Source: Tricholomella constricta
Lineage: Eukaryota > Basidiomycota > Agaricomycetes > Agaricales > Lyophyllaceae
Direction of reading: 5' to 3'
Assembly: GCA_013368375.1 (NCBI GenBank)
Contig: JAACJP010000016.1
Coordinates: forward strand, 372,001-436,000
DNA length: 64,000 nt
In this document: positions 26,634 through 59,407 of the stretch, piece after piece
Position numbering within the stretch: position 1 is the first letter of the stretch
Layout: every line of letters starts with the position of its first letter
The notes under the pieces: model-generated
Told to the model about the DNA's origin: nothing
Seen by the model: the letters and a program-made list of their open reading frames with translations, nothing else
Database searches by the model: none
Translations under genes and position numbers: made by a program

Positions 26634-27936
26634 ATGTCGAGGCCTCCTGTCGATCTTCAGCGCACTCTCCGCTTCTTGGAACGAGACTGGGACGAATGGC
26701 AATCGCTGTCGGCCGACTCCCCTCGTTACGCGCGCACCCGTGTGCTACAATACTTGTCGAACAGCCTCGGAGTGCTTAGGTCACCGGTGGCCAGTCCCTG
26801 GCGTTGGATGTGGAGCGGCGAGGAAGAGGCATTGTCTAACATATGGTCTACGATCGCGTCCGACCCCGAATGGTCCGAGCGGTTCGCGGATCTAGAACCG
26901 AGTGTGCGTTCGCTCGCTGGTTATTTGGTCGTTTTTGTAGCGTACTAACGCGCTAGTTGGTAGTCCGATTACCCTTATCGAGAGCCGGTCGCCCGGGAGC
27001 GTATGCGCGCCGCCTTTGCTGAAGAAGAGGCAGGGTCTGTCGTTCGGGAGCGTTCGTGCGCTTCCTCTGTTGGGGACGGGGACGAAGAGGCGTCTGTCGT
27101 CGAGATCTCCGGGGAGTCGGTATTGGCGGCACAAGGGATGCGACACCGCTTGTGGCTGGAGCGTCTCGAGGAATTCAAGAAGGAGTACCCTGAGCATTAC
27201 ACTCGTAGCGAAGCGGTAAGTCGTCGGTCCTCCTGCGTCCTTGTTCTTCTGTTCATCTATTGGCTAGTGCGATCGTTGTGTGAGCTACGGCTTGGACTGC
27301 GTTCAGCGCAGCGACATTGAGGTTTGCGCGGTTTGCGAGATTCAATCTAGGCGATGCGAGACGAACGAAGTGGGGTCGTTTCGGCCAGCTCCGCACCAGT
27401 TCGTGTCGTGTTCAGTAGAGGGCCACTTTTGCGACGCGTGTACGCCCCCTCCGCTGTTCGACGAGGTCCGTTCACCCGACCTGGCAAGGGCCGCTCAGCG
27501 CCTTGTCGTAGCTCGTTCTGCGGGTTCGGTAGACCGGGGTGCGGGTCTCCTTTATCAGGGTCCGGTGTTTCGCCCTGAGGACTTCCTTCGTAACGAAGAT
27601 TTGCGTGGTTTGGGCTTCACCCCGCCGTTGTCGGTTATTTCGCGGTTCGGTCTTGCAGATGTAGATCGGGCGCTATCGGCGCGCACCGTTTTCTTGCGTA
27701 CTTTGGTCCAGGAAATTCAAGTCCTTGAATCGCGCCAAGAGATCATGCGTTCGTCGTCCCGTCAGCTTTACGAGCAGGTCGTGTCTACGTCGTCGGCCCT
27801 TGACTTGCTTCAGGCCCGGCGCGCAGAGTTAGTTGGTGCGTCTGCGATGGGTAATTTGAGCAGTGGAGGCAGCGGTAGTGGGAGCGGTGCCGACGGTGGC
27901 GTACGCGACGATGGTGGCGAGGGTTCGTCGCCTTGA
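26634..27936 (+). CDS. as1: antisense cargo gene of Ty3-B with Zn2Cys6-type motif
   Basis: Three exons, 26634-26903, 26964-27215, 27268-27936 (introns 60 and 52 bp), all phase zero, 396 residues. A TATA box (TATATATA, 26596) lies 38 bp upstream of the ATG. Exon 1 has a helical domain ending EEEALSNIWSTIASDPEW. Exon 3 opens with CDRCVSYGLDC, eight residues, CAVCEIQSRRC (C-x2-C-x6-C-x8-C-x2-C-x6-C) and then a helical part (YQGPVFRPEDFLRNEDLRG, LVQEIQVLESRQEI) with a Gly/Ser tail. It is paralogous to as2 along its length. The gene has its own promoter and introns on the strand opposite to gag-pol, so its introns would survive retrotransposition. Function unknown; nucleic-acid binding is inferred. 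Confidence 0.8.
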
Positions 27937-28063
27937 CTTCGGGTTTGTCGTGTTTTGCGGTCGGGTTGCGTTCGTTATCGGTCGCGTATTCTGTATATAG
28001 ATATTCTGTTGTTCGGGCCCTAAAATTGGGTCGTTCTTTATAATTCAAACTTTTTGTGTTTTA

Positions 28064-28161
28064 AGTGGCGCAGGTCGGTTCGGTCGGTTTTGTCGGCGGT
28101 GTCGGTTTCGTGTTCTGAGTGGCGCAGGTCGGTTCGGTCGGTTTTGTCGGCGGTGTCGGTT
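28064..28161. repeat. Tandem repeat between as1 and as2
   Basis: A segment GTGGCGCAGGTCGGTTCGG with its continuation (GGTTTTGTCGGCGGTGTCGG) occurs twice in direct orientation about 55 bp apart, just 3' of as1. Confidence 0.75.
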
Positions 28162-28196
28162 GCTATCGTCGGCTGCCGCTTTGTCTGTAGGTCATG

Positions 28197-28238
28197 TCTC
28201 CTCCTTACTTGAAATGCCGACTGCCCTCAGTCGGTCCG
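28197..28238. repeat. Copy of the polypurine-tract box upstream of as2
   Basis: About 40 bp nearly identical to 26474-26513 (TCTCCTCCTTACTTGAAAT then CCGACTG...CAGTCGG, an inverted repeat). Each copy lies upstream of one of the paralogous genes as1 and as2, so box and gene were probably duplicated together. Confidence 0.75.
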
Positions 28239-28386
28239 GAGCCCGGTTGAGAAAATTCTAGACTGGCGCGTGTGTGGCGTGGGATGGCGGTGGCGGTGCA
28301 ACTGAATTTGACGGCGCGTCGACCTTATAAGGGCCCTCTGTCTTTCTCGGTTCCCTCCCTTTTTCTTTGTTTCTGCTTCTCACACC

Positions 28387-30159
28387 ATGACGGCGCTTGC
28401 GACCGACTTCCCCACCGTGGTCAGCAACCTGGCCGCTGACTACGTCCTTTGGTGCCAGCTTCCAGATGACGCCACCCGCGACGACCGCGCTCTCATCCTG
28501 GAGGACTTACATGAAGGCATCGTCGCGTTAAGAAGACAGGGAACGGGCCCGGAACGTTGCGTATGGCAGGGGGAGGACGACGCGCTGGCGGCAGTGTGGG
28601 CAACTATTGGGGAGGACAAGGAGTGGAAGGCGCGGTTCGCGAACCTGTGTCCTGAGGTACGGCCTGTCCGTCGGACAGCTCCTTCCTAGACTGACGACCA
28701 CCTCCCCATTCCCGCCGCAGGACGAGTACACCCGTCGGCGTCGCGAACGTCGCCTGCAATTGGCCACCAGCGGCCGCGCGTCGCAGTCGGTCGTTCCAGC
28801 GGGTTCTGTAGGCGAGTTGTCCAGCGGTGGGGCCGGGGCGCGGGGCGACGTGGCGCGCAGCGATGGCGGTACCATCCCGACGCCAGCTCCAGTGACGGCG
28901 TCGAGGTCGATGGAGCCCGGGTCTAGTGTGGCGGCCTCCTCGACCGCGGAAGGGAAGGGTAAAGCCGTTGATCCCGCCGAGGTAAGAGGGCGTGTCGTCG
29001 CGTTTTTCGGGACATTGCTGATTCTGGGGACAGAGAGCCCGACCGACACCCCGACTCCGTAGTGCGGGTGCGTCCTTGGGCGTCGTTTTCGATCCGGCGA
29101 GTGGCTCGCCTCTGACGAATATCGCAGGCACCACGCCGGCCACCGCGGTCAAGAGCGAGTCGGCGCCTTCAGGTCGAAAGCGCAAGCGGGAGGCCGCCGC
29201 CGACGACGAGGACGAGTCCATTGTGGAGATCCCTGAAGAGGAAGTGGTCGTGGGGCGGAAAAGGCGGCGCGGGACCGGTGAGGGGTGGCGGGTCCGCTAT
29301 GACAAGTTTAAGGTGGACGTTCCGAACTACTTGGTGCGTGAGGAACCGGTGAGTCGTATGCCTTCGCTGGGTCCGTTACACCTGGGCTCAGTTCTTCTTT
29401 TCGGAGTGCGATCGCTGTACCAGCGCCGGCGTCGCCTGTATTCAGAAGCCCGGGGTCGGCACTTGCGCTCTGTGCAAGATCCATGCAAAGAAGTGCGAGA
29501 CGGTTCGTCGGGCGCGGTCGGAGGCTACTCCCAGGGCGTCGGGTTCGCGTTTGCGTCGTTGGGTCGCGTCGCGCCCCACGATCGAGGACAGTGAGGCAGA
29601 GGAGCCCGAGGTCGAGTCGCACCCGGCGATGCGCGTGTCGCCCCCGGCGCGGTCCCCTCGCGAGCGGGCGGCCACCGTTCGTCGCCTCGCTAATCATCAC
29701 GTCGCCGGCGTCGGGGGCATGGGCGTTGATTTTGTGTACCAGGGGGCGCTTTCGAACGCGAACAGCCTCCTTCGCAACGGGGACTTGGCCGGATTGGGGT
29801 ATACTGCACCGGCGACGGTTGTTGCCGATTTCAGTCTCGAGGACGTGGACCGCGCGCTCTTCGCGCGCAATTCGTTCCTGCGTGCGCTTGTGCAAGAGGC
29901 GCAGCTCCTCGAGTCCCGCCAGGAGATTACGCAGTGGACACTGCAACAACTGTATCAGCAGGTGGGAGGCACGGCGGATGTCCTGGCGGCGTTGCAGACG
30001 CGACGCGAGGAGTTACTCGAGAGTGGGATGGGTGCCGACGGCTCCAGTGAGGGCAGCGCCGTAAGTACGGAGGATGAGGGTGCCGAAGGTGAAGGCGATG
30101 ACGATGAGGCGGAGGAAGGCGGCGACGGTGTCGAGGAAGGTGACGTCGTGATGGGTTGA
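28387..30159 (+). CDS. as2: antisense cargo gene of Ty3-B, paralogue of as1
   Basis: Exon 1 28387-28656 is 270 bp, the same length as exon 1 of as1, with the matching motif WQGEDDALAAVWATIGEDKEW. Exon 2 is 28721-28981. The next exon ends at 29348; its 5' border (about 29063-29130) is uncertain because the phase does not fit the obvious acceptors. The last exon 29407-30159 starts CDRCTSAGVAC, eight residues, CALCKIHAKKC and continues with YQGALSNANSLLRNGDLAG and LVQEAQLLESRQEI as in as1, then a strongly acidic tail. A TATA-like TTATAAG lies at 28325. The third exon also has basic patches (GRKRKRE, GRKRRRG) that could act as nuclear localisation signals. Confidence 0.78.
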
Positions 30160-30535: not shown

Positions 30536-33500
30536 TTAGTTCTGCTCTTCTTCCGACTCCGAGTCGTCGCCTACGACTTCGGGTCGGTCTTCGTCGTCGG
30601 TAATCGTCGTCGCCTCTAGTTCTCTGAGTCGTTTGGTATCTATGTCCAGAGCGCTACCGGGTAGGAGGATATTGTTGCGCGCGAAGTAGGGGGTGAGCCG
30701 GAACGCTGCTACGGGCCGGTGTAAGACAGTGCCATCCAGTTCGCAGAGAATGTATGCGCCTCCGCGGTTGCGTGAGATCACGACGAGCGGTCCTAGGTAT
30801 CTAGATCGCATTTTACGGTTGAGCGACTTCTCGATTTTCGTGTTGCGCATGAGGACGAGGTCCCCGCGTTTAAAGTTATAGTCGCGTAAGGTTCTGGCGT
30901 GTTTAAGTTCAAAGCGAATCGCCGCTTGTCGTCGCGCCGCGTATACGTCTGAATGCAGTCGCTCTAGGTCGGTCGCTCGTTTTTGTAAGGCGATCGCGCG
31001 ACGTGTCAAGAGATCGGTGGAGGACAAGATAGAGTCGGGTGGCGGTTGGAGGTACGTGGCTTCGACGATATCGAGCGGCAGGAGGGGTTGAGTCCCTGTC
31101 GCGGCATAGTAGGGGGAACATCCCATTCGTTTGCGGATTGTGACGCGTTCGGCCCAGAAAACCGAATAAGCTGATTGCGACCATTTGCTTTCGTTACCGT
31201 CGGCGGCTTTGAAAAGGGATTGTCGGACGTCGAAATGGGATCGCTCGACGAGTCCGTTGGCTCTAGAGTTATAGCCCGAGATTCGAATATTGTGGATGTG
31301 GTATTTTTTTGTGAGGTGTTCGGCGGCTTTGATGAAGGCTGGGCCATTGTCGGTTACGATTTCGCGTAGTCCGCCCCACCGGCAGATGATGTCTTCGTAC
31401 ATCCAATCGCCGAGTGTGCGACTGTTTTCCTTTCGGAGTGCGCGCCATTCGGGAAAGTGAATCAAGGAGCAACGACCTTGGACAATATATTTGAAACCGT
31501 TCGATGGCGGTAAGTGCATAGTGTCGATGTACATCTTTGCGAACAGTGGCGCAGGTGTCGCAACGACCGGGGGAATCAGAACCTTGGTCGTTTGTTGGAT
31601 TTGGCATATGTGACATGTCTGTACGAACCACACGACGTCGGCCCGAACATTAGGCCACCAAAAGCGCTCGAGTAGGGTCGCGCGTGTCGCGTAGAAGCGC
31701 TTGTGTCCGAGGTTGTCGTGGACCGATCGCAGGATCTCTAATCGCGCGCTGGGGCGGGCGACTAGTTTATGTGCGCCTTGGCTGTCTCTTCTCCAGAGTC
31801 GTGTTCCGTCTAGGAAAAACCCGGTGGCGTATCGAATGAATGTGGCGTACTGGTCGTCGGACATGCCTTCTGGTCGTTCGAGGTCGGCCAACCATTGTCT
31901 AACAGCATCTATACGGTGGTCTTGGGCTTTAGCGGCGTCGGTCCTGGGCACGTCGTCGTATGACATGTCGGTCGAGTTCGCGTTTGGATCGGTTATTCCT
32001 GTATCATCGTCGGTACGGATTCTGGGTTGTCGCGGGGAGTCGGTTGCGAGTTCGTGAGTCGCTGAGTCTGGTGGTACCGCGTCGGTGTATACTGCCACCA
32101 TCTCCTCCTTACTTGAGATCTGCGCCATAGCAAAGATCTGGCGCACATGCAATAGCGACGGTGGCTGTGGCAGTGGTTGAATAATGTGCATGAGTCCTTG
32201 CATCCGGTCGACCCAATCCTCAAAGTCGGCTTCTTCTGCGTCCCAGTTGTCGGTCGGGTCGTCGGGCTGACGAGGGCGACGGGATAAGCCGTCGGGTCCG
32301 TGGAACGTGCCTTTAACATGAACGAGCTCGAAGTGGAACATGAGGACAGATACGATCCACCTGTTTATGGAAGCTGACGGTTGGATATCGGGGTTGGAGA
32401 GCATGCCTTTAATGTAGCGTGCGTCGACTTCGACGACTAGGTTGCGAACGCCTATAACGTACAGTCGTAAAGCGCCAAGCGCCCGAAACAGGCCGTAAAA
32501 TTCGAGTTTCGGTTGAGAGAATCGGGATTCGCGGTCGTTCAGCGTGATGGAACCGAACCGATTGTATCTGCGTCGTTTCCGATCGACAGGGTCGGCCTGA
32601 CAGAGGTAGAATCCGACTGCTATGTGTGAAGTGTCGACGGCTAGGATGACGGGGTCGTCGGAGGCGTAGTCGATGGGTACGAGGGGTTTCGCTTCTGCGA
32701 TCGCCTCAACGATGTCGCGTTGCGCTGCGACCTGGTCGGGGCCGAACTCGAAGACTGCATCCTTGCGGGTTAGCTTCACGAGGTGGTGTGCGCGATGAGC
32801 AAAGTTTTTGACGAATATCCTGAGCACTCCGACTGTTCCTAAGAACGCGCGTAACTCCGATAGCGTGGCGCACGACTTCCAATTACGCAGTAAGGCTAGT
32901 CGGTCCACGTCGGGTATGCGACCGTCGGGCGTGCAGACGTGTCCGAGAACTTTGAATTGTGGCGCGCATAAGACTAGCTTCTTGCCAGAGAAGGTGCCGC
33001 CGCAGTACTTCATGCGCTGGAGGATGCGATTGACGTCGTTGAAGAATTCCCAGATCGCGAATCGCACATCGGCCTTGTTGGGGTGCGTTTTCGGCAACCC
33101 TGTGACCGGGTCGGGGTACCAAGTTGCAGGTCCCTTTATAGCAGCGTCGTCGATATAAGGTAGCGTATAGTCCGGGATTTCCGGTTGCAGTATGTGAGTG
33201 ACATCGTCGTGGAAGATTGGGACGGAGTTGGTCCAGCCCATAGGTAAGGTGACTAGGCGCAACGCGCCGAAAGGTGTTTGGAAGGTGGTAAGATCGCGCG
33301 ACGATGGTGCGATTAGCCGTTCGTCGTAGCCGACAAACAGGTCTAACATTGCGCCACAAATGCGACCGGCGAATTGTTCAGCGACGTGGTCTGGTATCGG
33401 GGTGACACCCGAGTGTCGGATTGTTACACGGTTGAGCGGTTCGAGGCTGTGGACGAGGCGGAACTTGCCGTTCTTCTTTAGAGTGCAAAACCAACGTGAT

Positions 33501-34310
33501 CGGTAGCTGGAGTTGGATGGTTCGTAAACGCCGGCGGCGAGTTTAGTTTTGATAATGTCGCAAACTTCGTCGTAGATGCCAGGTGGTATGGGGATATTGC
33601 GTTCGATCCAAGGTGTGTGCGCGACGACGGGGATATCGATGGGGGGAAAGAAGTCCGACCGAAAACTACCGCGTTCGGAGTCGTCCCATGCGAAAGCAAG
33701 GTTCTGCTTACACATGAGGTCGTGCATAATAGCGCGTTCGCCGGGCGTTAGGAAATCCGGGTGTTCGCGGTCTAGGTCTTCTTTTCGCTCCAGAGTGTAG
33801 CGGCCGGTGGGTTGGAAAGGTGGCGGGTTGGGGAGCAGAGTCGGCATGTCGGCGAGAGGGTCGCCCAATATTTTGCGCTCGATGCGGAAGTGGTCGGGAC
33901 AACTTGCTATAATCGATCGCACTTTTTGCGCTACTGGTTTGTACTTCTTTTTGGTTTGTACGCCTTTGATTTTCACCACGAAGGCGTCGGTGGCGGCGTT
34001 GGTCAGGGATTGGGTGTGGCGTCCACTATGGCGCTCGTTGTTCGGTAAAATAGTGCAGAGGGTCGTTCGTTTTTGAGGGTTAGAGTTGGTATTAACGGAT
34101 TGGGCGGCGATTGCTGGTGCGGTTAGTTCGGATGCCGCGACGTAGAGTGCGGCTAGTTGCGCGTCGTAGGTGGCGTCGCTATTAAATTCGGTCGGTAGTT
34201 CACAGAAAGAAAGGACGGTCGGGGTATAGCTTAGTGGGTCGTACTCGAGGAGGAGTGCAAGATCGCCGTGATCTCGACTTATTTCCTCGAGAGTATACGA
34301 AAATTTACGT
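30536..34310 (-). CDS. Ty3-B Pol: RT, RNase H, integrase
   Basis: The frame is open across the gag-PR stop at 34279, in the -1 frame relative to gag, so it is probably made by frameshifting; the first residues given are approximate. Motifs: RT with PMGWTNSVPIFHDD and the active site YIDDAAIKGP (YIDD rather than YLDD), RNase H (ILAVDTSHIAVGFYLC, KLEFYGLFRALGAL, GPDGLSRRP), integrase HHCC finger (LGHKRFYATR... CHICQ), and the DDE core (MYIDTMH, VTDNGPAF, ANGLVERSHF). There is no chromodomain. All domains appear intact, consistent with the identical LTRs. Confidence 0.88.
32101..32116 (-). promoter_or_regulatory. Candidate central polypurine tract in Ty3-B pol
   Basis: The exact 16-base TCAAGTAAGGAGGAGA of the 3' polypurine tract occurs here inside the coding sequence (reading SSKEEM), on the strand that would prime plus-strand DNA. 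Confidence 0.45.
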
Positions 34311-36582
34311 CGGTCTTGGGGCGGCGACGTTGTCCGCGCGCGAAGGTCGGTATCGCGATGACCTCTCGAGTGTTCGGGTCGGTGATGGTTATGATCGTAT
34401 CGTCGGCGGATCTCGTTTTCACGTTAGAGCAAGTAAGTACGTCGAACGGGCGGCCGAGGAGTATATCGTATGCGGGATTGCGAATGACGTGCATTTGGAG
34501 GTAGAGCGTGACCTCTCCTATCGTACAAGGTACGTTTCGTGCTAGACCGAGCGACGGGTCGGTTGTTCCATTCGCTGATTGCATCTGCAGCACTATAGTT
34601 GGGTCGTATTTGACCCCTAGTCCATGGCACACTTCTTCCGACATGGCTATGATCTGGCACCCGCTGTCGACGATGCTTTCTATCTGTTCTCTCGCGTCGA
34701 CCATTATCATGATCGACCTCAGTGCGTGCAATTCCATTGCGACGATCAGTCGGTCCGGATGCTCGCCAGGTAGTAGTGTCTGGTAATACGTGTCGTAGAT
34801 GTCGCCGGTGACTAGCGCTCCGGGCGGTGGCGTCGCGTTGTCGCTGTTGGATTCGCAAGGTAGTGCGTCGAGTTCCTCAATGAACGCCGACGTGGGGACT
34901 TCTTGGTATACCGTTGTGAGGTTGCCGGCGACGATACGCTTCGGTGTATTAGCTTCCCTAAACTTTCTGCGAACCTCTGGCGCTACCCCGCAGAGTTCTC
35001 GAACTGTGACCGGTATGGTGGCGTCGAGTGCGCGTTCGAATAGAGTCGTTGATTTGGTTGGATCTGTAATGGGCGCTTGTGTGCGATACGCACTGTCGGC
35101 TTTTGCCTTCTCCGTGGCGGCTAAGTTTCGCGTGGTAGGGGGGATGTATCGGTTCTCAGGAATGTTAGAGAAAGGGTGTACTGGAGTCTGGTCGTGGGCA
35201 TTGCCTGTGGCGTCGGTCTTGGTACTGGGGATCAGAGGTATGTTGGCCGGTGGCGGGGGAGCCTTGGCTTGGCTTTTCGTCGCGTCCGAGACGGGCTGCG
35301 ACGCGGGCGCTGATTTGTTGACTGGTGCGATCCTTGGTTGGTCGGCGTCTTGAACGGTTTCGACCGTGACGGGTCGCTTTTGCGGTGCACGACTAATAAG
35401 CTCCACGCCGTCAAACACTTCTTTCCGCGCGCGGAGCGTGTTGAGCTCTCGTTCTAACACAAGCATGCGGTCTTCGATTTTTAGGCCATGGTCAGTGACG
35501 TCGTTAAATTGTAGTATCTCCAACATCATGCTTTCGGTCGGGTTCGCGTTTGCCGATAGCTGTCCTGTCGCCAGTTGGCCGGGGTTGCGCCTGTGCCATT
35601 CGTCCAGTTTGTCTTTTATGTATCGACCTGGAGTCCCCGCTGGTATGCGCGCACCACTTGGCAGGCCTATCTTGTTGTCGTCGGTCCTGCGGCAGCGTCC
35701 TTCTCCCGCGTATGCTTGATGTACGGGACAGCTGGAGATATAATGTCCTTCGCCACCGCAAAAGAGGCAGTTGTCGTTAGGTGACTGGTTCGGTCGGCCG
35801 CCGTCGCCTCCTTTGTCTTGTCCTAGACGTAGGATATGTTGTTCCAAGAGGTGAATTCTTTCATGGAGTTCCTCTAGTTTGAGAGGTTGTCCTGTGTTAG
35901 GCGACTTGGTCGCGCCCGTTACCGACCCGCTCGGTGCTATCGTAACTTGTGGGGGTGCGCGCGGCGGCTCTTCCTGTCGCTGGACGGCGCTTGTCCCGTG
36001 TAAAATATGTTCGGCTGCGGCACGAACCGTTTCGGTGGCGTAGGGGTCATCGGGATGGTGGTTCGGGTTTAGGATTTCGAGTCTACGATGGATCTTTGCC
36101 CATAGGTCGGGCTGGAACGCGCGACGGAATTGACGGTCGCGTTCGTTTATCGAAAGTCGGTTTTTGCTGACAAGGAATTGGGTAACCGAAAGGAACTGTC
36201 GGTAATATTCCCCGAGATCGCTATTCGACTGGATCCCGAGTCGGTGTCGTTCCCTGAGCAGGTGGTCGAGGTCGGCCATTGAATATTTCCTTTCTTCGCT
36301 CGCGCCTGGATAGAGCGCCATTATCGCTTTTCGCCAATCGTCATATGTGGTACCAACTGCGAACTCGTCAAGTTGCTCCCACAGGTCAGCGGTATCGATG
36401 TCGGTGTATCGCGTAGCGTGCATTTTCTTCTCCTGTTCGTCTACGACGTTACACTCAATGAAGAGATGATTCAAGTCCGAGAAATATCGTCGCAGCTCGC
36501 GCGCGCGTTCGGGCACGAACGTCGGTGCCGAGCTTTGTCCGCGCGAGGGCATCGGTTTTGCAATAATCGGTGGTTGTGCCAT
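34279..36582 (-). CDS. Ty3-B Gag-protease
   Basis: 767 residues from the first ATG at 36582 (the frame is open upstream into the LTR but has no ATG there). Capsid-type helical sequence (AIMALYPGASEERKYSMADL), a coiled coil (EELHERIHLLEQHILRLG), a zinc knuckle CLFCGGEGHYISSC and, near the C terminus, an aspartic protease with IVDSGCQIIAMSE and YDILLGRPFDVLT. Protease is fused to Gag and separated from RT by the frame change, unlike Ty3-A and Ty3-C, where it is in the pol frame. Confidence 0.88.
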   Translation of the reverse strand: MAQPPIIAKPMPSRGQSSAPTFVPERARELRRYFSDLNHLFIECNVVDEQEKKMHATRYTDIDTADLWEQLDEFAVGTTYDDWRKAIMALYPGASEERKYSMADLDHLLRERHRLGIQSNSDLGEYYRQFLSVTQFLVSKNRLSINERDRQFRRAFQPDLWAKIHRRLEILNPNHHPDDPYATETVRAAAEHILHGTSAVQRQEEPPRAPPQVTIAPSGSVTGATKSPNTGQPLKLEELHERIHLLEQHILRLGQDKGGDGGRPNQSPNDNCLFCGGEGHYISSCPVHQAYAGEGRCRRTDDNKIGLPSGARIPAGTPGRYIKDKLDEWHRRNPGQLATGQLSANANPTESMMLEILQFNDVTDHGLKIEDRMLVLERELNTLRARKEVFDGVELISRAPQKRPVTVETVQDADQPRIAPVNKSAPASQPVSDATKSQAKAPPPPANIPLIPSTKTDATGNAHDQTPVHPFSNIPENRYIPPTTRNLAATEKAKADSAYRTQAPITDPTKSTTLFERALDATIPVTVRELCGVAPEVRRKFREANTPKRIVAGNLTTVYQEVPTSAFIEELDALPCESNSDNATPPPGALVTGDIYDTYYQTLLPGEHPDRLIVAMELHALRSIMIMVDAREQIESIVDSGCQIIAMSEEVCHGLGVKYDPTIVLQMQSANGTTDPSLGLARNVPCTIGEVTLYLQMHVIRNPAYDILLGRPFDVLTCSNVKTRSADDTIITITDPNTREVIAIPTFARGQRRRPKTDVNFRILSRK

Positions 36583-37065: not shown

Positions 37066-37067
37066 AA

Positions 37068-38104
37068 TGATAGTGCTAGAAGGCCTGTAGGTGCTGTGCA
37101 CAACAACAAAACAACTAACAACTATGGGGGGGCGAGAAGTGTTAAAAGTTCCCAAACACGCGAGTGTGCAGGGTTTGAAAGTGGTGGTTGGATGAAAGTA
37201 AAGACGATCCGACTCGTAATTAGTCGAACCGACGGCGATGCGATAGAATACGATCGTTCCCAGGCGGAACGGGTCGGTAACACGACTTTTGTGTTGGTTG
37301 TGCGGCAACGAGACGAACGAGACGAATACGAAGAACTCACGAGTTCGGGCGATGTTTACGAGACGACAGAGACGACGGTTACGAGGTTTTACGACGGTGG
37401 CGACGGGTTATACGATGAGAACGATACGGAGACGACAGAGACGACGGTTTTGAGCTATTAACTCTTGAGAGTGAGGGAAAATACGGGCTGTAATTCACTA
37501 AGGGAAGTAGGTAGTACATGGGTACATTTTATACTATGCGACCGACTCGCCTCTCGCAAGCCGGTGAGGCAGGTGTTTTACTAGTTTATTGGGAGAAGCG
37601 CCGCCAAGCTTAGTACCGCGCGACGCTTTTCAGAGAGTGTGGCGCTCTCTGGCTCGGCAAAGGGGCTTTTGATCGGCTCGCGGTGTCGGGTCGGACGTAT
37701 GATCGGTGGTGGATTTGCGATCGGTAGTGGCTCTTGGGTGCGGAACTCCGTGGTACGGCCGGATCCTCTCTGCGAATAGCTGGGCAAAGGTGTTTTCAAT
37801 GATAATTTCAAATCGGGTTTGGTTGTCGCCGGGTTGAGACCTTGGCATGCCAACGTGCGCGGTCGTTGACAGGTTATACGGCGTTCCGTGCTCCGTGCAC
37901 CTAGAGAGGAGAACTGGCGTTTCAAGTTACTCTGTCTCTTGGTCGGTGCGTCGGTCATTTGGTCGTATTGTCGGTCGGTCGGTCGCATTGTCGGTCGGTC
38001 GGTTCGGCGCTTTGGTCGCATCCAGGACCGTGTTCGTCGTGGCGCAGCGGTTGATGTCCGTATTATGGGCGGGTTCGGTGTACAACGCGGGACGGTGCTC
38101 ATCA
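37068..38104 (-). repeat. Ty3-B 5' LTR
   Basis: 1037 bp, same sequence as 25437-26473 as far as I compared. Its distal end abuts CCGC of acc2. Confidence 0.93.
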
Positions 38105-38468
38105 CCGCGCGGCGGACCCCTTGCCTTCCGCCGCAGACAAGGGAAAGGGCAAGGTGGTGCAGTCGTTCCAGGACTTGGACCGGGATGACAGCGACAACGA
38201 ATTCCGAGCGATGTCCGCGGTCGACCACGGAAACTATGACCCCGCCTGTGTACGATGCACAATGAGGAATCTCGCGTGCAGGATACAGGGTGGGAAGGCA
38301 ACAGCCTGCTTTCCATGCAAGTTTGCAAAGCAGAGTTGTGTTTTCTCACCAGGCATTCCGAGGAAGGGGCCAAAGCCAACGAAGGTCAAGCGGGCAAAGG
38401 AGAACATCGCGGGTCCCTGTAAGTTCCCATCCATTTTTTTATCACTTTGCTAATAAATATACTTGTAG

Positions 38469-38629
38469 CCACTCACCCCAGGTCCGCTGCCGCGCCCTCC
38501 GCGGACTTCAACCCCGCGGGGCCTTGTAAGTCTTTTTTCTTCTCTTCATCACTTTGCTAAAGAAGACCATTGTAGCCACCCACTTCCCGTCCGCTGCCGC
38601 GCTCCCCGCGGACTTTGACCCCGCGGCGA
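38469..38629 (+). repeat. Duplicated exon in acc2
   Basis: The 57-bp exon 38469-38525 (THPRSAAAPSADFNPAG) resembles the beginning of the next exon at 38576 (THFPSAAALPADFDPAA), and the two preceding introns are alike (both contain ATCACTTTGCTAA). Exon 38469-38525 is phase 1 at both ends, so the duplication keeps the frame. Confidence 0.75.
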
Positions 38630-39640
38630 TCCTGACCAGGCTTGCGACCTTGACCGCAGAAAATACCACTTTGCGGGAGCGGATGTCAGACCTGGAGGTC
38701 AGCGTGCAATTGGTGCTGAAGCGGGACAAGAGGCGGTCAATGCAGTGCGAGCTCATCAACCTTAGGGCTGCAGAGCTTGTACTTGCACAGCGGGAGCTGG
38801 AGTTGGCAGGGAGGGAGGTATTGGGTGAGGCGCAACGTCAGGGAGTCGAGGTGCAGGGCCTGCAGAAGCGTGTGCGGATGCTAGAGGCGCAAGCACCTCT
38901 TCCCACGGAGCTGGCCGCGGAGCTGTTTGCGGACATGGCCGCCCTCAACATAGAGAACATGGATTTGCAAGCACCTCCGCAAGCAACTCCGCCTCCTCCG
39001 CGCAGGCCCGCAGAGTCCGCTCAAGATCCGCCTTTGCCTCCGTCTTCACCCCAGTCAGCGGCTGAGGGAACTCCGCCTCCCTCCACCCCTCTGCCCCCCT
39101 TGCCCACCACCCCTCCACCTCCAGCCACCCCTCCACCTCCACCTCCAGCCACCCCTGTGCCCACCACCCCTGTGCCCACCCCCGCTCTCGCCACCCCTTC
39201 ACCACCGGCCTGGAGCCCGACTGTGCCTGCGTCGACCCCAGCTGGACCCACCCTCCAGGTGACTCCGCCCACCCCACAAGGATCCGCGGGCCCCGCGGGC
39301 CCTGCCACTCCGTCTCCGCGGCTCAGTCCTGAGGGGTCACCTGCTCCAGAGGAAGGTTTGCGAGGCACAAAACGCAAGGCGGCGGATGAGGGTGGAGGGC
39401 CTTCCAAAAAGCACAATTCAGCCTAGGTGGCTTGGACTTTCCGAACACCCCGCGGACTTCCTTCAAATATCTGTTTTCTTTACTGAACAAATATGTATGA
39501 TAGCAAAGCACTGGCAACTTGTAGTGTATATACTGCCACATTATTGAAAAGTATATACAATAAAACAATTTTTTTGAACATTGTGATCAATGAATTACCA
39601 ATGAGCTGTCAACAATTATAACTGATGAGAAAACAGTAAA

Positions 39641-42170: not shown

Positions 42171-45100
42171 ATGTTGCGTGCAGTAAAGCGCACACGTCGC
42201 AAGAAGGATGAAGTCCTTAAGGAAAGTTCTCGCTCATATGCCATGGATGTCGAGACAACAGTCAGCATACCCAGAGGGGTGACATCGTGGAATCCAGGAG
42301 TGTCCCCTTGCGCAAGAGGTCACCGGACCCTGCTACATCTGTCCCTCAGGGTGTGCAGACCCATGTCCAACCCTTTGAGCATTCGGACATTCACTCAGCA
42401 GACCTGAATGACACCACTGATGAGGTGGCCCCCAAACGGGGCAAGGTGAATTGTTCTTTGAAGTAGTGTGTACATGTAACTGAATCACAGCACAGACACA
42501 AGGTGATTACCTTCAAGAATTTGTGAACCACGTTCCAGAACTGTTGGAGGGACTACTTGGGAGAGAGTACATTGAGAATCAAACTCAATGTTCTGATTGT
42601 CCCAAGGGCAACTATGGATGTTGGCGTTGTCGAGACTGTCTCAGTGACAGGATACTCTGCCGGGGTTGCATGCGGACAACTCACAGGGACAATCCTCTCC
42701 ATCGCATTGAGTTCTGGACAGGTCAATACTTCCAGGCAGCTCAGCTGCAGGAGGTTGGTACCTACTTGCTGGTCCCCCACCACTCCTCCGAGAAAGCACT
42801 CTGTGATACACTACAGCTACAACAGGAGCAGTTGGAGAATTACCAGGTGAAATACGACGATGAAGAACAGAAGAACCACTGCACAGAGCAGCGAAACGAC
42901 CCTGCGGGTCGACACAGCGACCCCGCGGACCCCGCGGACATGACTGATCAGACTTCCTATGATGCAGCGGACAATGATTATATGGCGCGCTTGAGCCGTG
43001 CTTATGGTCAACAGCCAGAATTTCATCCGATTGCTGAGGCAGGGTCTAATCTGGACACAGTTGAAGTCGAAGTGGACGAGGAAGATGACGATGACACTGG
43101 TGTTGATGATGACCTTCCGGCGAGAATGCCACGGCACGACGCATTCAACAATCGTTATGTGCGCATTGTACATGTCAATGGAATTCACTACATTCCACTT
43201 GTCTTCTGTTCATGCCGCGGAGTCAGCCAGGTCAATACAGACCTGATGCACAAACGATTGGTGCCTGCTAGCTTCACACGATACAATACGCTCTTCACCA
43301 CTGCAGTCCTCGATGATTATCGTCTTGCGAACCTGGAATGCAAGGCATCTGCATTTCAGTATTGGCACAAACTCAGCCGGACTACCGCTGCAGCAACGAG
43401 CTCCGCGGACATCGACAACTTTTATCGCGAACTCCGCCGGCTCTCGCGTTCATGGAGATGGCTGAAGAAGCTCAAATGGGGTGGATTTGGCAGCAATAAC
43501 AGAGATCCAATGCAGACCACTGCAGGGGAGCTCGCCATTTTTTGTCCCACATGTCCACAGCCAGGTGTCAATCTCCCCGCGGGGTGGTCCGCGGACCCAA
43601 ATAAGTGAGTGCATTTGGTGACGATTGATCATTGTTATTAACATTATATGCAGAAAAGTATACATGAGGTCTTTTGTCGCAGATGGCAATTTCAAAGCGG
43701 ATCATGTTCGCCAAAAGAACAATGCCATGGATGTTTGGCTGTCGGAAGGGTCAGGTATGATGGCTAACCGGGCCAATTATAATGAGTTCCTGAAGGAAGC
43801 ATTCAATGTGATGACAGTGAGTCAAGTCCGATCACCTCTGCGGCGTAGTCCGCGGGGTTCATCAACCCCGCGGCGTTCTGTGCTAACCTGTATTTTAGAA
43901 AGCCCCTTGCGAGAATCAGTTCCGCGCTGTTGAGCAGGCAATGCTTGTGTCCAAAGCCTGTGATGTTAAAGGAATTGTAGCCATTGCATGTGCGCGGCAT
44001 GGTTGTTTTGCCCCCAACAGCCTGTCGGACCTCCACGCGGGTGAGCAGCAAAAGAATGTGGACTGGGCATTCCTCCAGGCGCTTAAAACAACAAATGTGG
44101 AAGACATTGACCAGGTGTTATTGATCTATGATATTGCCTGCCAATACATGGTACACTTTCTGAAGCGCATCGGCCACCTACTCCCCCCAGGAATGACTAT
44201 TGCTCAGGCCATCGGACTACTCCATGTTCACGATCACAAAGATGATTGCTTTAACCGCTTTGCAACTTCATTCATTCCAGGCGCTGCTATAGTTGCGGGT
44301 GAAATTCTGGAGAGTTTGTGGGCCGTGTTGAACACTGTGTCACCAATGACCAGAACCGCAACATTGGCACACCGAGCGGAGATCCTGGACGATCATATGA
44401 ATGATTCTAACTGGAAGAAACTCCTGCAGATGCGTTAGTAAAATTTCATCTATTCCGTTATGATAACTGACCATGTCCGCGGCCGCGGAGTAGCGGTCAC
44501 ATTGTGTCGGACATACGAAAAGGCGACAGAGATGTTGGAGACTGCTCAAGAATATTTCAAAGGTGTCGCTTCAGGCATAAGCCGCACACAAACCACAACT
44601 TGGGAGGCGGAGATCCAGGAGGCCGAGCGGAGGAGGGTTCATGATGTCAAGGCTATGGACATCCTCAAAGCGCGCACCGCGGACATTGGGCAGCTGAGAG
44701 ATTCCAATGGACCTGTGCAACACTCAACAGCTGAAGAGGAGTGGATACAATCAGGCCTTGATCTTGAGGAGCGCCAGTAAGACATTTTATCTCTATTTGT
44801 CTTCCGGAGCTGAACAGTTTCCATCTAGAATTGGCCTTCAAGACAAAGTCCGCCAACTTGTGCGCGAGCCGCGGGAAGATGTCCGCAAGGCCGTCGAAAC
44901 TGAAAGGCAAAGCCTACGTGCACAAATTGATGTGTTCACATCAAAACAGCTGAGCATAAACTTCATTCCTTCGGCCTCCGCGGAGGATGTGCCAGTGAAC
45001 GTCGAAGCCTTTGACAACCTAGACGAGAACCCCGCGGACCTGCCACCCTCCGGAGACGCCGCGGTGCCAGCACAAACACGCTCCCGTCCTGTCAGTGCAA

Positions 45101-47180: not shown

Positions 47181-47294
47181 CTCTTAGAAACCCGACGAAG
47201 CTGACCGACCAGCTTCCGCGCCGAAACACGCGTCTGCTACACGCGACCGTCCAACGCGCGCTCGCTCTGATCGCCCGCCCAGTCCCGTTTCGAG

Positions 47295-53729: not shown

Positions 53730-54283
53730 CACCCCGTTATCCAACCCCGGAGTATATTGCTTCCGATGATGAGGCGGACCCTGCGGAGATGATGGGTAAG
53801 CTGCATCCTCTACAGTCTCTGTATATTTTCTGACTGTTTGAACCCAAATAGCACCGCGTTATCCAACCCCGGAATATATTGCTTCCGATGATGAGGCGGA
53901 CCCCGTGGAGATGAAGGGTAAGCTGCATCCTCTACAGTCTCTATATATTTTCTGACTGTTTGAACCCAAATAGCACCGCGTTATCCAACCCCGGAATATA
54001 TTGCTTCCGATGATGAGGCGGACCCCGTGGAGATGAAGGGTAAGCTGCATCCTCTACAGTCTCTATATATTTTCTGACTGTTTGAACCCAAATAGCACCG
54101 CGTTATCCAACCCCAGAGTATATTCCTTCCGATGATGAGGTGGACCCCGCGGCGATGACGGGTAAGCTGCATCCTCTACAGTCTCTGTATATTTTCTGAC
54201 TGTTTGAACCCAAATAGCACCGCGTTATCCAACCCCGGACTATGTTCCTTCCGATGCTGAGCCCAGGTCCGCGGAGATGAGCG
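53730..54283 (+). repeat. Tandem exon-intron array in acc4, five 122-bp units
   Basis: Each unit is a 66-bp exon (phase 1 at both ends, 22 codons) plus a 56-bp intron GTAAGCTGCATCC...CCAAATAG. Exons start at 53730, 53852, 53974, 54096 and 54218. The units are nearly identical; a sixth, diverged relative of the motif (SPDYVPSDDE) begins the last exon at 54326. Confidence 0.92.
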
Positions 54284-54711
54284 GTAAATTGCATTCTTAA
54301 TCATTTCTACTGTCTGAGCTCACAGGCTCACCAGATTATGTGCCATCTGACGACGAAGTCAGCTCCGCGGGCCATCGGGTTGAGGAAAGTGAAGATCTCC
54401 ATGACCCTGATCTCGAGTTTTCAGACGATGACAGCCCCGCGGAGGTGGGCGCGCAAGACCCGGATGAGCAAGGGGCAGACATCCTCTCACTGTCCGAGGA
54501 CTCAGGTGAGGAGGGGCAACTTAGGGTTACACGGCGCACTGGCCGCAGGCAGCGGGCTCGTCGTAATGCCAGACCGCCAATTGAAATGCTTGAAGGCTTA
54601 CTTCAGTTTTCAGACGATGAGTTCAATGAGCAGCTTGCAGTCCAAGTACCCCGCGGACGATACACCGCCGCCTCATTTGCGCACATTCCGGCCAACATTT
54701 TGGATGATTAG

Positions 54712-55212: not shown

Positions 55213-55850
55213 CCCGCTGTATTAGCCCCCAAAAAGGCGACCCGCGGAGGTCCGCAGACGTGGGGAATCCCCCGCTGGCCCATATAGGCCCGCTGTATTA
55301 GCCCCCAAGAAGGTGACCCGCGGAGGTCCGCAGACGTGGGCAATCCCCCATGCCAGCCCCCAGAAAGGCGACCCGCGGAGGTCCGCAGATGTGGGCAATC
55401 CCCCATACCAGCCCCCAAAAAGGTGACCCACGGAGGTCCGCAGACGTGGGTATCCCCCATACCAGCCCCCAAAAAGGCGACCCGCGGAGGTCCGCAGACG
55501 TGGGCAATACCAGCCCCCAACAACGAGACCCGCGGAGGTCCGCAGATGTGGGCCCCATACCAGCCCCCAAAAAGGCGACCCGCGGAGGTCCACAGACGTG
55601 GGCAATCCCCCGCTGGCTCATATAGGCCCGCTGTATTAGCCCCCAAAAAGGCGACCCGCGGAGGTCCGCAGATGTGGGCAATACCCCATACCAGCCCCCA
55701 CAAAGGAGACCTGCAGAGGTCCGCAGATGTGGGCAATCAGCCCCCAGAAAGGCGACCCGCGGAGGTCCACAGACGTGGGCAATCCCCCGCTGGCTCATAT
55801 AGGCCCGCTGTATTAGCCCCCAAAAAGGCAACCCGCAGAGGTCCGCAGAC
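55213..55850. repeat. KDZ right subterminal array, eleven units
   Basis: Eleven copies of GAGGTCCGCAGA(C/T)GTGG or close variants, each preceded by a CCCGCGG-type core and a CAGCCCCCA(A/C)AAAGGCGA block, spacing mostly about 54 with longer units that include TATAGGCCCGCTGTATTAG. This is the left array in inverted orientation with more copies. Confidence 0.9.
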
Positions 55851-56086
55851 GTGGGCAATCCCCCGCTGGCCCCCTACCCCGCTGCATATTAGCCCTGCTG
55901 TAGCACCAGCGGGGCCGCTGGAACCGTGCCAGATGACTACATGTAGAGACCCCGCTGGTACCGTGCAACACGGCTACATGTAGTGGCCCCGCTGGCGCTC
56001 CAGCGGCCCCGCTGGTGCCGTCAATACGGCTACATGTATGGCCCCGCTGGACAGTAGGACACGCTACATTGTAGTGCCCCTACCTG
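55838..56086 (-). repeat. KDZ right terminal inverted repeat
   Basis: Inverted copy of 22753-23001, same length (249 bp); followed by the target duplication ATCATGA and the continuation of Ty3-A integrase. Confidence 0.9.
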
Positions 56087-57301
56087 ATCATGAGGACTTA
56101 TTTCTGGCCCGGATTACGGAAGGAGGTCACTCGATACGTCCGAAGCTGTCATACCTGTAAAAGAGCGAAGGTCCCACGCCATAGCCCATACGGACTATTG
56201 AAACCACTCCAGATTGGGCGAAGGGCGTGGGCCTCCATATCCATGGACCACATTGTAGAACTACCGGAATCGGATGGGTACGACGCCATACTGGTCGTAG
56301 TATGCCGCCTCACCAAGCAAGGCATCTTCATACCCTGTCACACAACGGACACAGCAAAGGAACTTGCTCAACTATTCTTGGAACATGTCTTCTCCAAGCA
56401 CGGACTGCCCGATGACATCATCTCCGACAGAGGCACCCTCTTCGTCTCCCGTTTCTGGAGCTCGCTATGTAAAGCCCTGGACATCAAATCGAACCTTTCG
56501 ACCGCGTATCACCCGGAGACCGACGGCCAGACGGAACGAGTAAATCAGACACTGGAACAGTACCTCCGGATATACGTGAACTACCTCCAGACCAACTGGC
56601 GAACACAGCTCCCACTGGCGGAATTCACGTATAACAATACGACCCATTCGACCACGGGAGTCTCTCCTTTCTTTGCGAACAAGGGTTATCACCCCCGCCT
56701 GACAATCTGTATAAAAGACATACCGGCAAAGGAAGCCCAGGAGGTAGCCGTAGACCTCCGGACCCTCCAGGACTACCTCCGCCAAGAGATAGAGATCGCA
56801 AACGAAGCCTACAAACGATTCGCGGACAAGAAACGGGACCCTACACCAGACTGGGCTGTAGGAACGGAGGTATGGCTCGACTGCCGGAACATCAAAACGA
56901 AATGCCCCTCCAAAAAGCTAGACCACCGGAGACTGGGCCCCTTCAAAATCCTGCAGAAGATTTCCAGCCATGCGTATCGACTGGAACTACCTCCGACACT
57001 GAAGGGAATTCACAATGTGTTCCACGTCAAGTTACTCGAAAAACACGAACACGAGAACTTCCCAGGACGATCAAAGCCACCTCCGCAGACAATCGAAATC
57101 GAGGGCGAGGAGCACTACAAAGTAGAACGAATCCTAGACTCCCGAACACGAGGGAAACACGTGCTCTACTTGGTACGATGGGAAGGATATGGCCCTGAGG
57201 ACGACACATGGGAACCAGCAGGAAACATAGAGGGAGCAAAAGACATGGCCCTCGAATTCCATCGTCTATTCCCAAGGAAACCACGAGACCCCACAATCTA
57301 G
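56087..57301 (+). pseudogene. Ty3-A Pol, 3' part: integrase and chromodomain
   Basis: Continues the frame broken at 22752: RTYFWPG, second half of the HHCC finger (CHTCKRAK), DDE core (SMDHIVELPES, ISDRGTLF, TDGQTERVNQ), then a chromodomain (HYKVERILDSRTRG, YLVRWEGYGPEDDTWEP), stop at 57301. The sequence itself is intact; only the KDZ insertion separates it from the rest of pol. Confidence 0.92.
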
Positions 57302-57506
57302 AATCCGACGAAATTCACGCACTTCACGAAATTTATGAAAAGCCCCTTCAAGAAAACGATTTTTATCACAAAATGTATTTCGAACACCGGGACAACGACA
57401 GTACAAGAAAAAGAAAACACCAAGGAAAAAGAATTAACGAACTTCAGATGTAAATATTCAACAAAAAGAAAGCAAAGAAGGTCCTAGACACCACCAAGAA
57501 GACCGA

Positions 57507-59407
57507 CTAGTCAATGCGACGACGTTTGGATGGACCCGCGCTCGGAGTGGAACCCTCCCCGCGACCAAACCCGACCTCCCCATCCAACTCCCCCTCCAAC
57601 GGACGCATCGAAGCAATATCCTGCTCATTGTCGGCGATTAATTGGGATCGAGACACGAAGTCCGCAAGGGCGTCTTCACGAGTGAGCGAAGTGCGGTGCA
57701 AAGCAAGGAAATGATCGAACACAGGGAAGAGTACCTCGGGGTCGACGGGAGGGGGGAAGAGCTCGAGGAGCGAATGCCGCTCCAGGACCTTATGGGCAGC
57801 GTCGACAATATCCCAGGCCGGCGACACCTCCATCTCGACAAGGGCCCGACGCAAGGCACCGTCGGCGACAAACATGTCCGACGCAAAAGCGGTACGCGCA
57901 AGTTCAAGGGCTATGACAAACTCAGACAACGAGAGAGGAACGACACGAATCAAAAAACTCACCGTCGACACGAACGCGAAGGTCCAAGGCATGACCACGC
58001 CAATGGTCCCGGACCTCCTGAAGATGGACGACGTGCCCCTGAAGACCCGCTACCTCATCCTCGAGACCCGCAACCTGCATCCGCAGATCCTCAACCTCAG
58101 CGTCACGATCGACGTCGACGACCTCCACGGCACGCGATGTCTGCGCCTGCAGATGAAGAAGGCGTTCACGCTCGTCAGCGAGTTGGGATAGGACTCCGTG
58201 AAAACGACCTTTGTGGCGTTCACCCTCGACCTCGAGACGCTCGACCTGGGAGGAAAGGGCCTGAGCACGCGCGACCTCCTGGTCGTAGAGACGCTGGAGA
58301 CGGAGGAACGCCTCCGGCGAAGGAACGGAAGGAGCAGGGGTAGCGAGGGGGGACGACAGCAACATGGAGGGAGGGCAGGACTGCAGGGCTGGCGATGGCG
58401 AAACTGAATTGGACGAGCTCTTTAAAAAGAGAGGTTCGTCAGGGGTCGTATCGGGGGACACCGCACGCGTAGCGCCCGACAAAGGAGGAACCAAAAGAGG
58501 AGAAGTCGGCGCCGCGGGAGAAAGGGAGGGGGAACGAGGCAAAGGACGCCCCCTAGACCCCTGCAGACCAGACCGCATACCCCCACGACCAACAGACGCT
58601 AATTTTCGACCCTGTCCTCGGGTACCACGAAAGATAGCACGCGCAGGCGGAGCACGGCTAAGGCGAACGGCGGCCTCGTCCCCAGAAGAAGAGGAAAGGG
58701 AAAGGACCTCCGTAGAAGGCACGGAGACAAGAGAGGAGTCGAAGGAGGGGGACGCCACACGCAAGATACGACGGATAGCGGAAAAGGACATAGCGACGCC
58801 GGTGCGGGAGAAGGAAAAACCTTCGGTACAGGTCCGCAACCGCGCCAAGGGGATCGCCAATTCCCTAGATGCCACCTCTAGACCATGGTCAAGCGACAGG
58901 GAGCACAAGGCGTGCGCCGCGCGGCAATCGACGCAGGGCAAGGTCCCACGAAGACGAACCTCCTGAAAACGGCAAGACTGATGACGACCCCGACACCGAT
59001 CACACTAGCAAAGAGCCCAAAAAGAGAATCAGCGGAAGGATCCAGCCCGATCGCAAACGAAAGACGATACTTACCGGTCCGTGCGCCTCACACCAAGCCA
59101 AAGAAGGAGGAACCCGCACAGCGGTACGCATCACCTCCGCCAGAACCGCATCTGTCAAGAGGGGCCCCCAAGACAATGAAGTCGCCGCCGGACGCGACAC
59201 GGGATCACTGGAAGATTCGAAAAGGGCCTCCGGAGTGGTCGAACGGGGGCGACGGATCTGCTGAGCCCTGACCGGAAGACGAATAACCAGTCGAGGGAAG
59301 GAGGGCATAGGAGGAACGGGGGAAGAACTGGGGACGGCCCCGACGCTTCCATCTGGGAGAACGGCGATCCCAGGGAGAGAAGGAGTAGGGGAGACGGGTC
59401 GGGGCAT
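57507..59407 (-). CDS. as3: antisense cargo gene of Ty3-A with Zn2Cys6-type motif
   Basis: Exons 59407-59075, 59004-57963, 57910-57507 with introns of 70 and 52 bp; 592 residues from the ATG at 59407. Exon 2 begins CDRCRGRHQSC, twelve residues, CVDCRAAHALC (C-x2-C-x6-C-x12-C-x2-C-x6-C), followed by a Ser/Pro-rich part and a long coiled coil (LRLQRLYDQEVARAQALSSQ, VEDLRMQVAGLEDEV). The C-terminal exon is helical and ends PSKRRRID. Placement (antisense, between pol and 3' LTR) and the splice site just before CDRC are the same as in as1/as2 of Ty3-B. An upstream ATG at 59511 is in frame but cut by TAA at 59435-59437, so the original N terminus may be lost. Confidence 0.75.

Follow-up and report, generated by a model that had tools for sequence, protein, structure and literature searches.

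What are genes with six regularly spaced cysteines doing on the antisense strand of two fungal retrotransposon lineages, and how are they related to a gene of the same cysteine spacing in a DNA transposon? The question is raised by a 64,000-nucleotide stretch of the Tricholomella constricta genome (contig C16, JAACJP010000016.1, positions 372001-436000; "the window" below is this whole stretch), which is a nest of mobile elements. The Ty3 elements Ty3-A and Ty3-B carry the antisense genes as3 and as1/as2, respectively, and a KDZ transposon carries the sense gene acc2; an earlier note on this DNA had read the antisense genes as a cargo family shared between the two Ty3 lineages and acc2 as similar to them in motif. 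We find that the antisense six-cysteine genes are real, widespread in this genome and unusual, and that they are a regular component of two Ty3 lineages. The genes and the Ty3 landmarks that fix their position, including the long terminal repeats (LTRs), are these.

26634..27936, plus strand: as1, antisense gene of Ty3-B; exons 26634-26903, 26964-27215 and 27268-27936, 396 amino acids, GT-AG joins in frame
28387..30159, plus strand: as2, paralogue of as1 and hypervariable cassette; approximate exons ~28387-28656, 28721-28981, 29128-29348 and 29407-30159, as no in-frame junction of exons 2 and 3 could be settled on
57507..59407, minus strand: as3, antisense gene of Ty3-A with a long predicted coiled coil; exons 59407-59075, 59004-57963 and 57910-57507
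38105..39426, plus strand: acc2, sense accessory gene of the KDZ transposon, its 5' end cut by the Ty3-B insertion
25437..26473, minus strand: 3' LTR of Ty3-B, matching 37068-38104 without a difference across 1037 bp; flank repeat of 4 bp, CCGC
30536..34423, minus strand: pol of Ty3-B; no chromodomain found in its tail by Pfam
56075..57301, plus strand: integrase and chromodomain end of Ty3-A pol, from Pfam

The motif C-x2-C-x6-C-x(8-12)-C-x2-C-x6-C has exactly four matches in the six frames of the window, one in each gene to which it had been attributed (as1, 27268-27357, plus strand, spacer 8; as2, 29407-29496, plus, 8; acc2, 38247-38339, plus, 9; as3, 58903-59004, minus, 12), and none in 150 dinucleotide-preserving shuffles of the window. 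In as1, as2 and as3 it opens with CDRC after a predicted intron and its AG acceptor, the first Cys codon being the first codon of the exon, as the earlier note had described, and an AG stands directly before the first Cys in all 54 further loci checked as well (26 as2-type and 28 as3-type; 60 were fetched and 6 excluded in which the first two Cys codons were not where expected). No splice acceptor precedes the motif of acc2. All six Cys are invariant across 12 aligned as1/as2 exons, and the genome holds 53 matches to the last exon of as1, a few incomplete, with identities of 76-100%. Proteins of as3 type are annotated as spliced in a public record; one of these, P0001, labelled a 'Zn(2)-C6 domain' protein, agrees with our as3 exon joins. 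A TAA (59437-59435, minus strand) lies in frame within a longer N-terminus of the window's as3; the same stretch is open in 10 near-identical copies and also broken in the copies L050 and L066, and intact as3 copies are present elsewhere in the genome.

Within the window, as1 and as2 lie antisense between the pol and the 3' LTR of Ty3-B, and as3 lies antisense between the integrase/chromodomain end of Ty3-A and its 3' LTR (from 59735), so that the position and the contrast between one lineage with a chromodomain (Pfam Chromo in Ty3-A) and one without (the Ty3-B tail) are both as first described. The layout recurs through the genome (searches covered the 44.1-Mb, 118-contig assembly; matches are exon pieces, not gene counts, and position is measured against the reverse transcriptase (RT), the LTR itself being seen in the window and a few copies only). 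For the as3 family, 91 matches have a listed RT no more than 8 kb away, and every one of them lies antisense to that RT and on its 3' side, at a median distance of ~3,620 bp (35 of the 126 matches in all have no listed RT within 8 kb), and the same holds for 116 of the 123 as1/as2-family matches with a Ty3-B RT within 12 kb, seven deviating from this position relative to the nearest RT (the best 150 of 174 matches were used, 27 of them with no listed RT within 12 kb). Viewed from the RT side, an as3-family antisense match lies beside 78 of 87 Ty3-A-type RTs among the matches listed (at least 150 RT matches for Ty3-A and Ty3-C, the two types being separated by RT match length, a proxy), and an as1/as2-family match beside 68 of 78 Ty3-B RTs (the Ty3-B set being 92 of at least 150 matches, with fragments and rows of ~29% identity excluded). 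Among the 63 Ty3-C-type RTs listed, by comparison, an as3 match is found beside none and an as1/as2-family match beside two, and none of 14 more distant Ty3-B-like RTs has an as1/as2-family match. Ty3-C itself, the third Ty3 of the window, with an identical 474-bp LTR match and a chromodomain (Pfam), leaves no space for an antisense gene, because its pol extends to the LTR.

The KDZ transposon that bears acc2 is represented by the following frames.

42484..44438, plus strand: CxC2 and KDZ transposase frames (PF18803, PF18758)

Here acc2 lies upstream of the PF18758 transposase on the same strand, its open frame beginning in LTR sequence because Ty3-B inserted there. Elsewhere, 28 of 30 acc2-type matches with a KDZ transposase within 25 kb likewise lie upstream on the same strand (35 of 108 acc2 and 45 of 82 KDZ matches were used, five of the 35 having no KDZ match within 25 kb; the acc2 matches left out hold mostly the LTR-derived start only, one, C5:143312, lying in the cysteine domain). 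Carriage by several kinds of mobile element, two Ty3 lineages and KDZ, was thus correctly proposed, and the matches are clearly tied to such elements, contrary to one of the refuting outcomes that the earlier note had named. That the genes are host transcription factors lying in elements by chance is ruled out by the regularity of position and strand, of the as genes relative to RT and of acc2 relative to KDZ. A protein database search with as3 returned two proteins, P0001 and P0002, both labelled Tricholomella constricta, and none in other species, and those with as1 and as2 returned no relatives; these searches scored only candidates sharing short words (7,993, 7,998 and 5,698) and do not establish absence in other species.

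Do the four genes then form one family? For as1 and as2 the answer is yes: they are 43% identical over the Cys exon, remain similar outside the cysteines (z 7.5), and a dyad with a polypurine-tract segment, described below, is repeated before each, so that they are tandem paralogues of one family. The third antisense gene behaves differently. With cysteines removed and positions permuted, as2 versus as3 is like shuffles (z 0.4, p 0.31), as1 versus as3 gives p 0.54 and divergent Ty3-B types versus as3 p 0.12, and hhalign of the as1/as2 against the as3 profiles gives a probability of 1.2% (E 0.045) over 33 columns confined to the cysteine domain; between as2 and as3, then, profile comparison finds nothing beyond cysteine spacing, an outcome that the earlier note had named as refuting its idea. 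The body that follows the head also differs, as3 having a long predicted coiled coil and as1/as2 a DVDRAL...QEI helical region. In the same permutation acc2 is weakly like the as1/as2 family (p 0.06 against as2, 0.02 against as1 and 0.008 against divergent Ty3-B types, uncorrected for multiple tests), with p 0.07 against as3; it shares the motif and is borne by a KDZ element, as had been noted, but on the sense strand and without the acceptor. The permutation and profile comparisons therefore establish common descent for as1 and as2, leave it possible for acc2 and do not demonstrate it for as3, and a single family for all four genes is rejected for as2 versus as3. What still speaks most strongly for a common descent of as3 with as1/as2 is the splice position that they share.

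Whatever their descent, as2 and as3 encode proteins under constraint, since the ratio of nonsynonymous to synonymous divergence (dN/dS) is well below 1 for pairs with dS above 0.2 (0.12-0.33 for as2, 0.22-0.37 for as3; Nei-Gojobori, with distant pairs near saturation). For the as2 type 30 loci were fetched, 15 tried and 11 had enough exon and pol; for the as3 type 10 of 30 loci were used. Pairs with dS of ~0.02 or less hold too few changes for their ratios to count (as3: L039/L050 1.98, L053/L059 1.10, L053/L054 0.37; as2: L009/L010 0.50). Pseudogenes or chance reading frames are rejected on the grounds of purifying selection and conserved cysteines.

By its sequence as2 is at the same time a hypervariable cassette. 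Across 35 elements, including the window's own, in which as1, as2 and RT were all paired (44 pairs before a listed RT was required; 53 as1, 52 as2 and 38 RT rows, picked from longer match lists), median identity to the window copy is 98% for RT, 89% for as1 and 49% for as2. Against the window copy, eight copies (L013, L014, L017, L022, L024, L034, L035 and L038) show 80-95% identity in pol-tail windows and 46-74% in as2 windows, L010 and L011 being nearer to it, and dS from the window to L013, L014, L021, L022, L023, L024 and L035 is 1.18-1.68 in as2 and 0.27-0.41 in the pol tail. For L011 (0.60 in as2, 0.50 in the pol tail) and L019 (1.15, 0.94) the two values are close, and dS of as2 does not always exceed that of pol (0.28 versus 0.36 for L021/L022, 0.60 versus 0.50 for L009/L011). 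Distances in as2 and pol correlate little (Spearman 0.20, 15 elements, pairs not independent), and the trees conflict, with high support: L021 groups with L022 by as2 (0.999) and with L035-L038 by pol (0.985). Because of this conflict we prefer exchange of 3' modules, perhaps by template switching, over fast change in place. The KDZ elements offer what appears to be a parallel: 23 same-strand copies have a transposase piece of 95-100% identity, and the acc2 match reaches only 43-66% in 18 of them, against 78-100% in the other five.

What might such proteins do? The reading that we favour, tentatively and at slightly less than an even chance, is that as1, as2 and as3 are element-encoded, Zn2Cys6-like self-regulators, each tuning its own element. 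The Cys6 head, predicted to bind zinc, together with a predicted helical pairing region would attach to control sequences of the element itself and so tune its transcription or silencing. Antisense transcription would begin next to the polypurine tract, from a promoter lying just within the 3' LTR, and the protein would dimerise through the coiled coil of as3 or a helical hairpin of as1/as2, act on the dyad CCGACTG-N4-CAGTCGG upstream of as1/as2 in auto-regulation, and thence act on the U3 of the adjoining LTR. Activation or anti-silencing would be more likely than repression, since as2 has an acidic tail at the end of its last exon. On this reading recombination would also pass divergent as2 cassettes from element to element, so that one and the same pol is joined to different regulators, and acc2 would be a factor of this kind belonging to the KDZ transposon. 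In a bolder form of it, three unrelated kinds of element, the two Ty3 lineages and KDZ, would each run a private six-Cys regulator, and with as2 swapped among elements that share replication genes the genome would hold different regulatory specificities of one retrotransposon, rather like phage repressors; for this wider picture the chance seems to us distinctly smaller, perhaps three parts in ten.

The predicted build is compatible with such a role. All four motifs have the spacing of PF00172, C-x2-C-x6-C-x(5-12)-C-x2-C-x(6-8)-C. With low overall confidence, AlphaFold models as2 (mean pLDDT, the predicted local distance difference test score, 51) with short helices at each CxxC and helices at 144-170 and 176-207, and as3 (mean pLDDT 54) with a confident coiled-coil stretch; helices are predicted in exon 2 of as3 at 230-292 and 299-359, with pLDDT 80-92 in the blocks 231-290 and 301-330, dropping to 51 at the end. 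A Cys6 head followed by a coiled coil in as3, or by two helices and an acidic tail in as2, would be a regulator-like build. The DNA beside as1 and as2 holds candidate sites.

26494..26511, plus strand: 18-bp dyad upstream of as1, beside the polypurine tract (sequence comparison and genome search)
28217..28234, plus strand: 18-bp dyad before as2, accompanied by a second polypurine-tract segment (sequence comparison and genome search)
26310..26376, no strand: TCGG-rich array at the U3 end of the 3' LTR, upstream of as1 (GGTCGG/CCGACC enrichment)

Upstream of as1 and of as2 the dyad reads CCGACTG-YCCY-CAGTCGG. With at most one mismatch to the form whose left arm has CTG, 133 sites occur in the genome, often paired ~1.5-1.7 kb apart, and a reversed control has none; 88 of the 100 listed sites are followed on the same strand, no more than 2.5 kb away, by an as1/as2-family exon, a figure that stands without a random-position baseline, and 12 have no antisense exon downstream. 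The symmetric double change (CTG...CAG) occurs 9 times, the change in the right arm only once and the left-only form 13 times, counts that are not independent because the copies are related. The dyad could serve as a site for a dimer, could fold into a hairpin, or could belong to the region that primes the plus strand. A TATA-like run is present 30-40 bp upstream of the as1 ATG. GGTCGG/CCGACC is found 5 times in 26280-26633 against 0.9 expected, and enrichment of GGTCGG is seen in the Ty3-B LTR and in the gaps around as1/as2 (z 4.5-6.4). As a separate observation, 28196-28234 upstream of as2 is a second polypurine-tract segment inside Ty3-B, which may be duplicated or an internal priming site.

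Several results weigh against a self-regulator that reads DNA in the classical manner. Gal4-type heads have basic residues between Cys2 and Cys3, whereas as1/as2 show the reverse: this loop 1 has 2-3 Lys/Arg in as3 types, 1-2 in acc2 types and none in the as1/as2 copies read, except for 1-2 in three copies of the most divergent type, and it is loop 2 that has 1-3 in most as1/as2 heads. Because loop 1 is mostly without Lys/Arg, classical CGG recognition is unlikely for as1/as2. Zn_clus scores only 12.0 bits with the as3 exon (10.7 with the whole as3 gene model) and 12.2 with acc2, the cut-off being 21; it does not match as1/as2 (E up to 10, most matches above 0.1 filtered out), and none of the 43 matches of a PF00172 genome search falls at the as1, as2, as3 or acc2 loci. 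Outside the cysteines no head shows measurable likeness to the one Gal4 sequence compared (p 0.31-0.72). The structure prediction of the cysteine domain suggested by the earlier note yielded models in which the head has low confidence (pLDDT 62-68 in as2, 32-38 in as3) and is uninformative, and Foldseek with the as2 model found no match in the PDB at E 0.001 or better. The dyad, which adjoins the polypurine tract, may have a role in reverse transcription. Enrichment of GGTCGG extends to gag (z 4.6) and pol (z 4.0) and is not seen in the Ty3-A LTR, nor in as1 or as2, so that the CGG-rich LTR is not accepted as a proven binding site. Lastly, two elements in which as2 differs greatly from that of the window element have an LTR ~91% identical to its LTR; there is therefore no visible co-divergence of as2 with the LTR in the two elements compared.

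These difficulties give some room to a counter-defence by protein contact, in which the products would bind and disable host silencing proteins without reading DNA, the cysteine head would be a module for protein interaction, and as2 would vary as the host target changes. We consider it unlikely, although it would accommodate the hypervariability of as2 beside a more conserved as1 and RT, the loop 1 without basic residues in most as1/as2 heads and the absence of a Zn_clus match in as1/as2; dN/dS well below 1, trees that suggest exchange of old cassettes over fast change in place, and a dyad that suggests a DNA site all speak against it. Less likely again is a helper of replication or integration, a nucleic-acid-binding or targeting factor working with Gag or integrase and, for example, replacing the chromodomain in Ty3-B. 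Ty3-A carries a chromodomain and as3 together, acc2 belongs to a KDZ element, which works without reverse transcription, and antisense promoters would suggest a timing separate from gag-pol; on its side such a helper has the missing chromodomain of the Ty3-B tail and the dyad and polypurine tract standing side by side.

We give the same weight as to the helper to the idea closest to the earlier note, that a single Cys6 exon was passed among Ty3-A, Ty3-B and KDZ and then diverged past recognition. The identical antisense position in both Ty3 lineages, the acceptor exactly before the first Cys in both (54/54 loci), the weak likeness of acc2 to as1/as2 (p 0.008-0.06) and the reported passage of TET/JBP genes between fungal transposon lineages (PMC12730594, in the parts available) would all suit it, but permutation and hhalign find no measurable likeness of as2 to as3, and acc2 lies in sense without the acceptor. 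That the antisense RNA itself regulates the element, the reading frames being incidental, is very improbable: transcription antisense over pol could yield double-stranded RNA, as has been proposed for plant elements (PMC7264820, in its available part), and yet selection is purifying, the cysteines are invariant and the acceptor is conserved at high divergence. The self-regulator reading, with as2 exchanged as a cassette, thus remains the one we prefer.

The surrounding architecture may be described briefly. Ty3-A lies on the plus strand between LTRs from 16240 and 59735 (99.2% identity across 362 bp), and its pol is interrupted, apparently by a single insertion, between the inverted arms 22761-23024 and 55815-56078 (264 nt, 98% complementary), inside which lie the KDZ transposase with its CxC2 domain, Ty3-B and Ty3-C; tandem repeats of ~54 bp occur near these arms. 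The second LTR of Ty3-B completes the list of features.

37068..38104, minus strand: 5' LTR of Ty3-B (LTR pair comparison)

Since both its LTRs are identical over 1037 bp, Ty3-B has been mobile recently. A Pfam scan of frame 44698-45615, next after the KDZ transposase, gave no match, and 53724-54333 holds tandem 122-bp direct repeats (four overlapping 244-nt copies, 80-98% identity). At 3180-7800 (plus strand) consecutive gag-like, RT-like and tyrosine-recombinase-like frames have a DIRS-like layout by eye, three scanned pieces being without a Pfam match. A split gene at 10800-14120 (minus strand) resembles an SNM1-type DNA-repair nuclease by eye, its piece 13458-14120 weakly matching metallo-beta-lactamase (17.4 bits, below the cut-off). 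Adjoining the Ty3-A 3' LTR, 60227-60649 (plus strand) is a Ty1/Copia-like integrase fragment (gag_pre-integrs and rve, both below the cut-off).

How do these genes compare with known systems? The earlier note knew of no described fungal family of this kind, and no fungal antisense Cys6 retrotransposon gene was found in the literature searched, as judged from titles and abstract openings, with only some of the searches directed at this question and most subscription papers outside their scope. The available part of the review 'LTR Retrotransposons in Fungi' (PMC3248453) treats additional domains inside pol and nested complex elements, with zinc and the opposite strand unmentioned there. The TET/JBP cargo resembles ours as an accessory gene carried by several kinds of Agaricomycete transposon, KDZ included, and differs in being another protein, the words zinc, Zn2, cysteine and accessory being absent from the main text of PMC12730594. 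With the Zn2Cys6 factors (Gal4-type, PF00172) our genes share the cysteine spacing, the sequence of head and coiled coil in as3 and the acidic tail of as2; they differ in their sub-cut-off or missing profile match, in the second rather than the first loop being basic in most as1/as2 heads, and in lying antisense inside retroelements. The retrovirus HTLV (human T-cell leukaemia virus) likewise has an antisense gene near its 3' LTR, the product of which, HBZ, is a nuclear regulator with a coiled coil and, unlike ours, a bZIP head; no homology is implied. An HTLV antisense promoter in the 3' LTR is mentioned in the available parts of two papers on plant elements (PMC11963269, PMC7264820).

Those same papers describe the closest layout, the aORF-3R of plant Ty3 elements (Retand, Grande gene23, RIRE2), to which the earlier note had rightly pointed: according to the parts available, these frames lie on the strand opposite to gag-pol in the stretch from pol to the 3' LTR, are suspected regulators, occur in many or all copies of a lineage, and have a reported upstream promoter in Grande. 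Unlike our genes, 97% of the plant Retand clusters carry TRP28 (PF04195), of which Pfam found no match in the whole models of as1 and as3 or the last exon of as2; ours have a six-Cys head, the tandem as1/as2 pair, the hypervariable as2 and a fungal host. The layout is thus known from plants, and what is new is the kind of protein head, the occurrence in a fungus and as2 as a swapped cassette. If our reading is true, the accessory regulators of fungal Ty3 elements form a system on a par with the antisense genes of retroviruses and plants, one that can be recognised by its protein head and counted by its promoter site; the contrast of RT 98%, as1 89% and as2 49% makes regulatory grouping by gene swapping directly testable; and orphan 'Zn(2)-C6 domain' mushroom proteins such as P0001 might be re-annotated as transposon parts rather than host factors. 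For the role itself, the anti-silencing VANC proteins of Arabidopsis VANDAL transposons (PMC5735166, PMC10398659) offer a possible model: as the available parts of these papers describe them, they too are element-encoded factors that differ between related elements, and repeated motifs lie in the noncoding DNA of those elements. VANC, unlike our genes, which are known from sequence alone, comes from a plant DNA transposon, binds it and demethylates it, and the Ty3-B LTR does not visibly co-diverge with as2. The as genes would then resemble plant antisense reading frames in layout and, perhaps, VANC in role.

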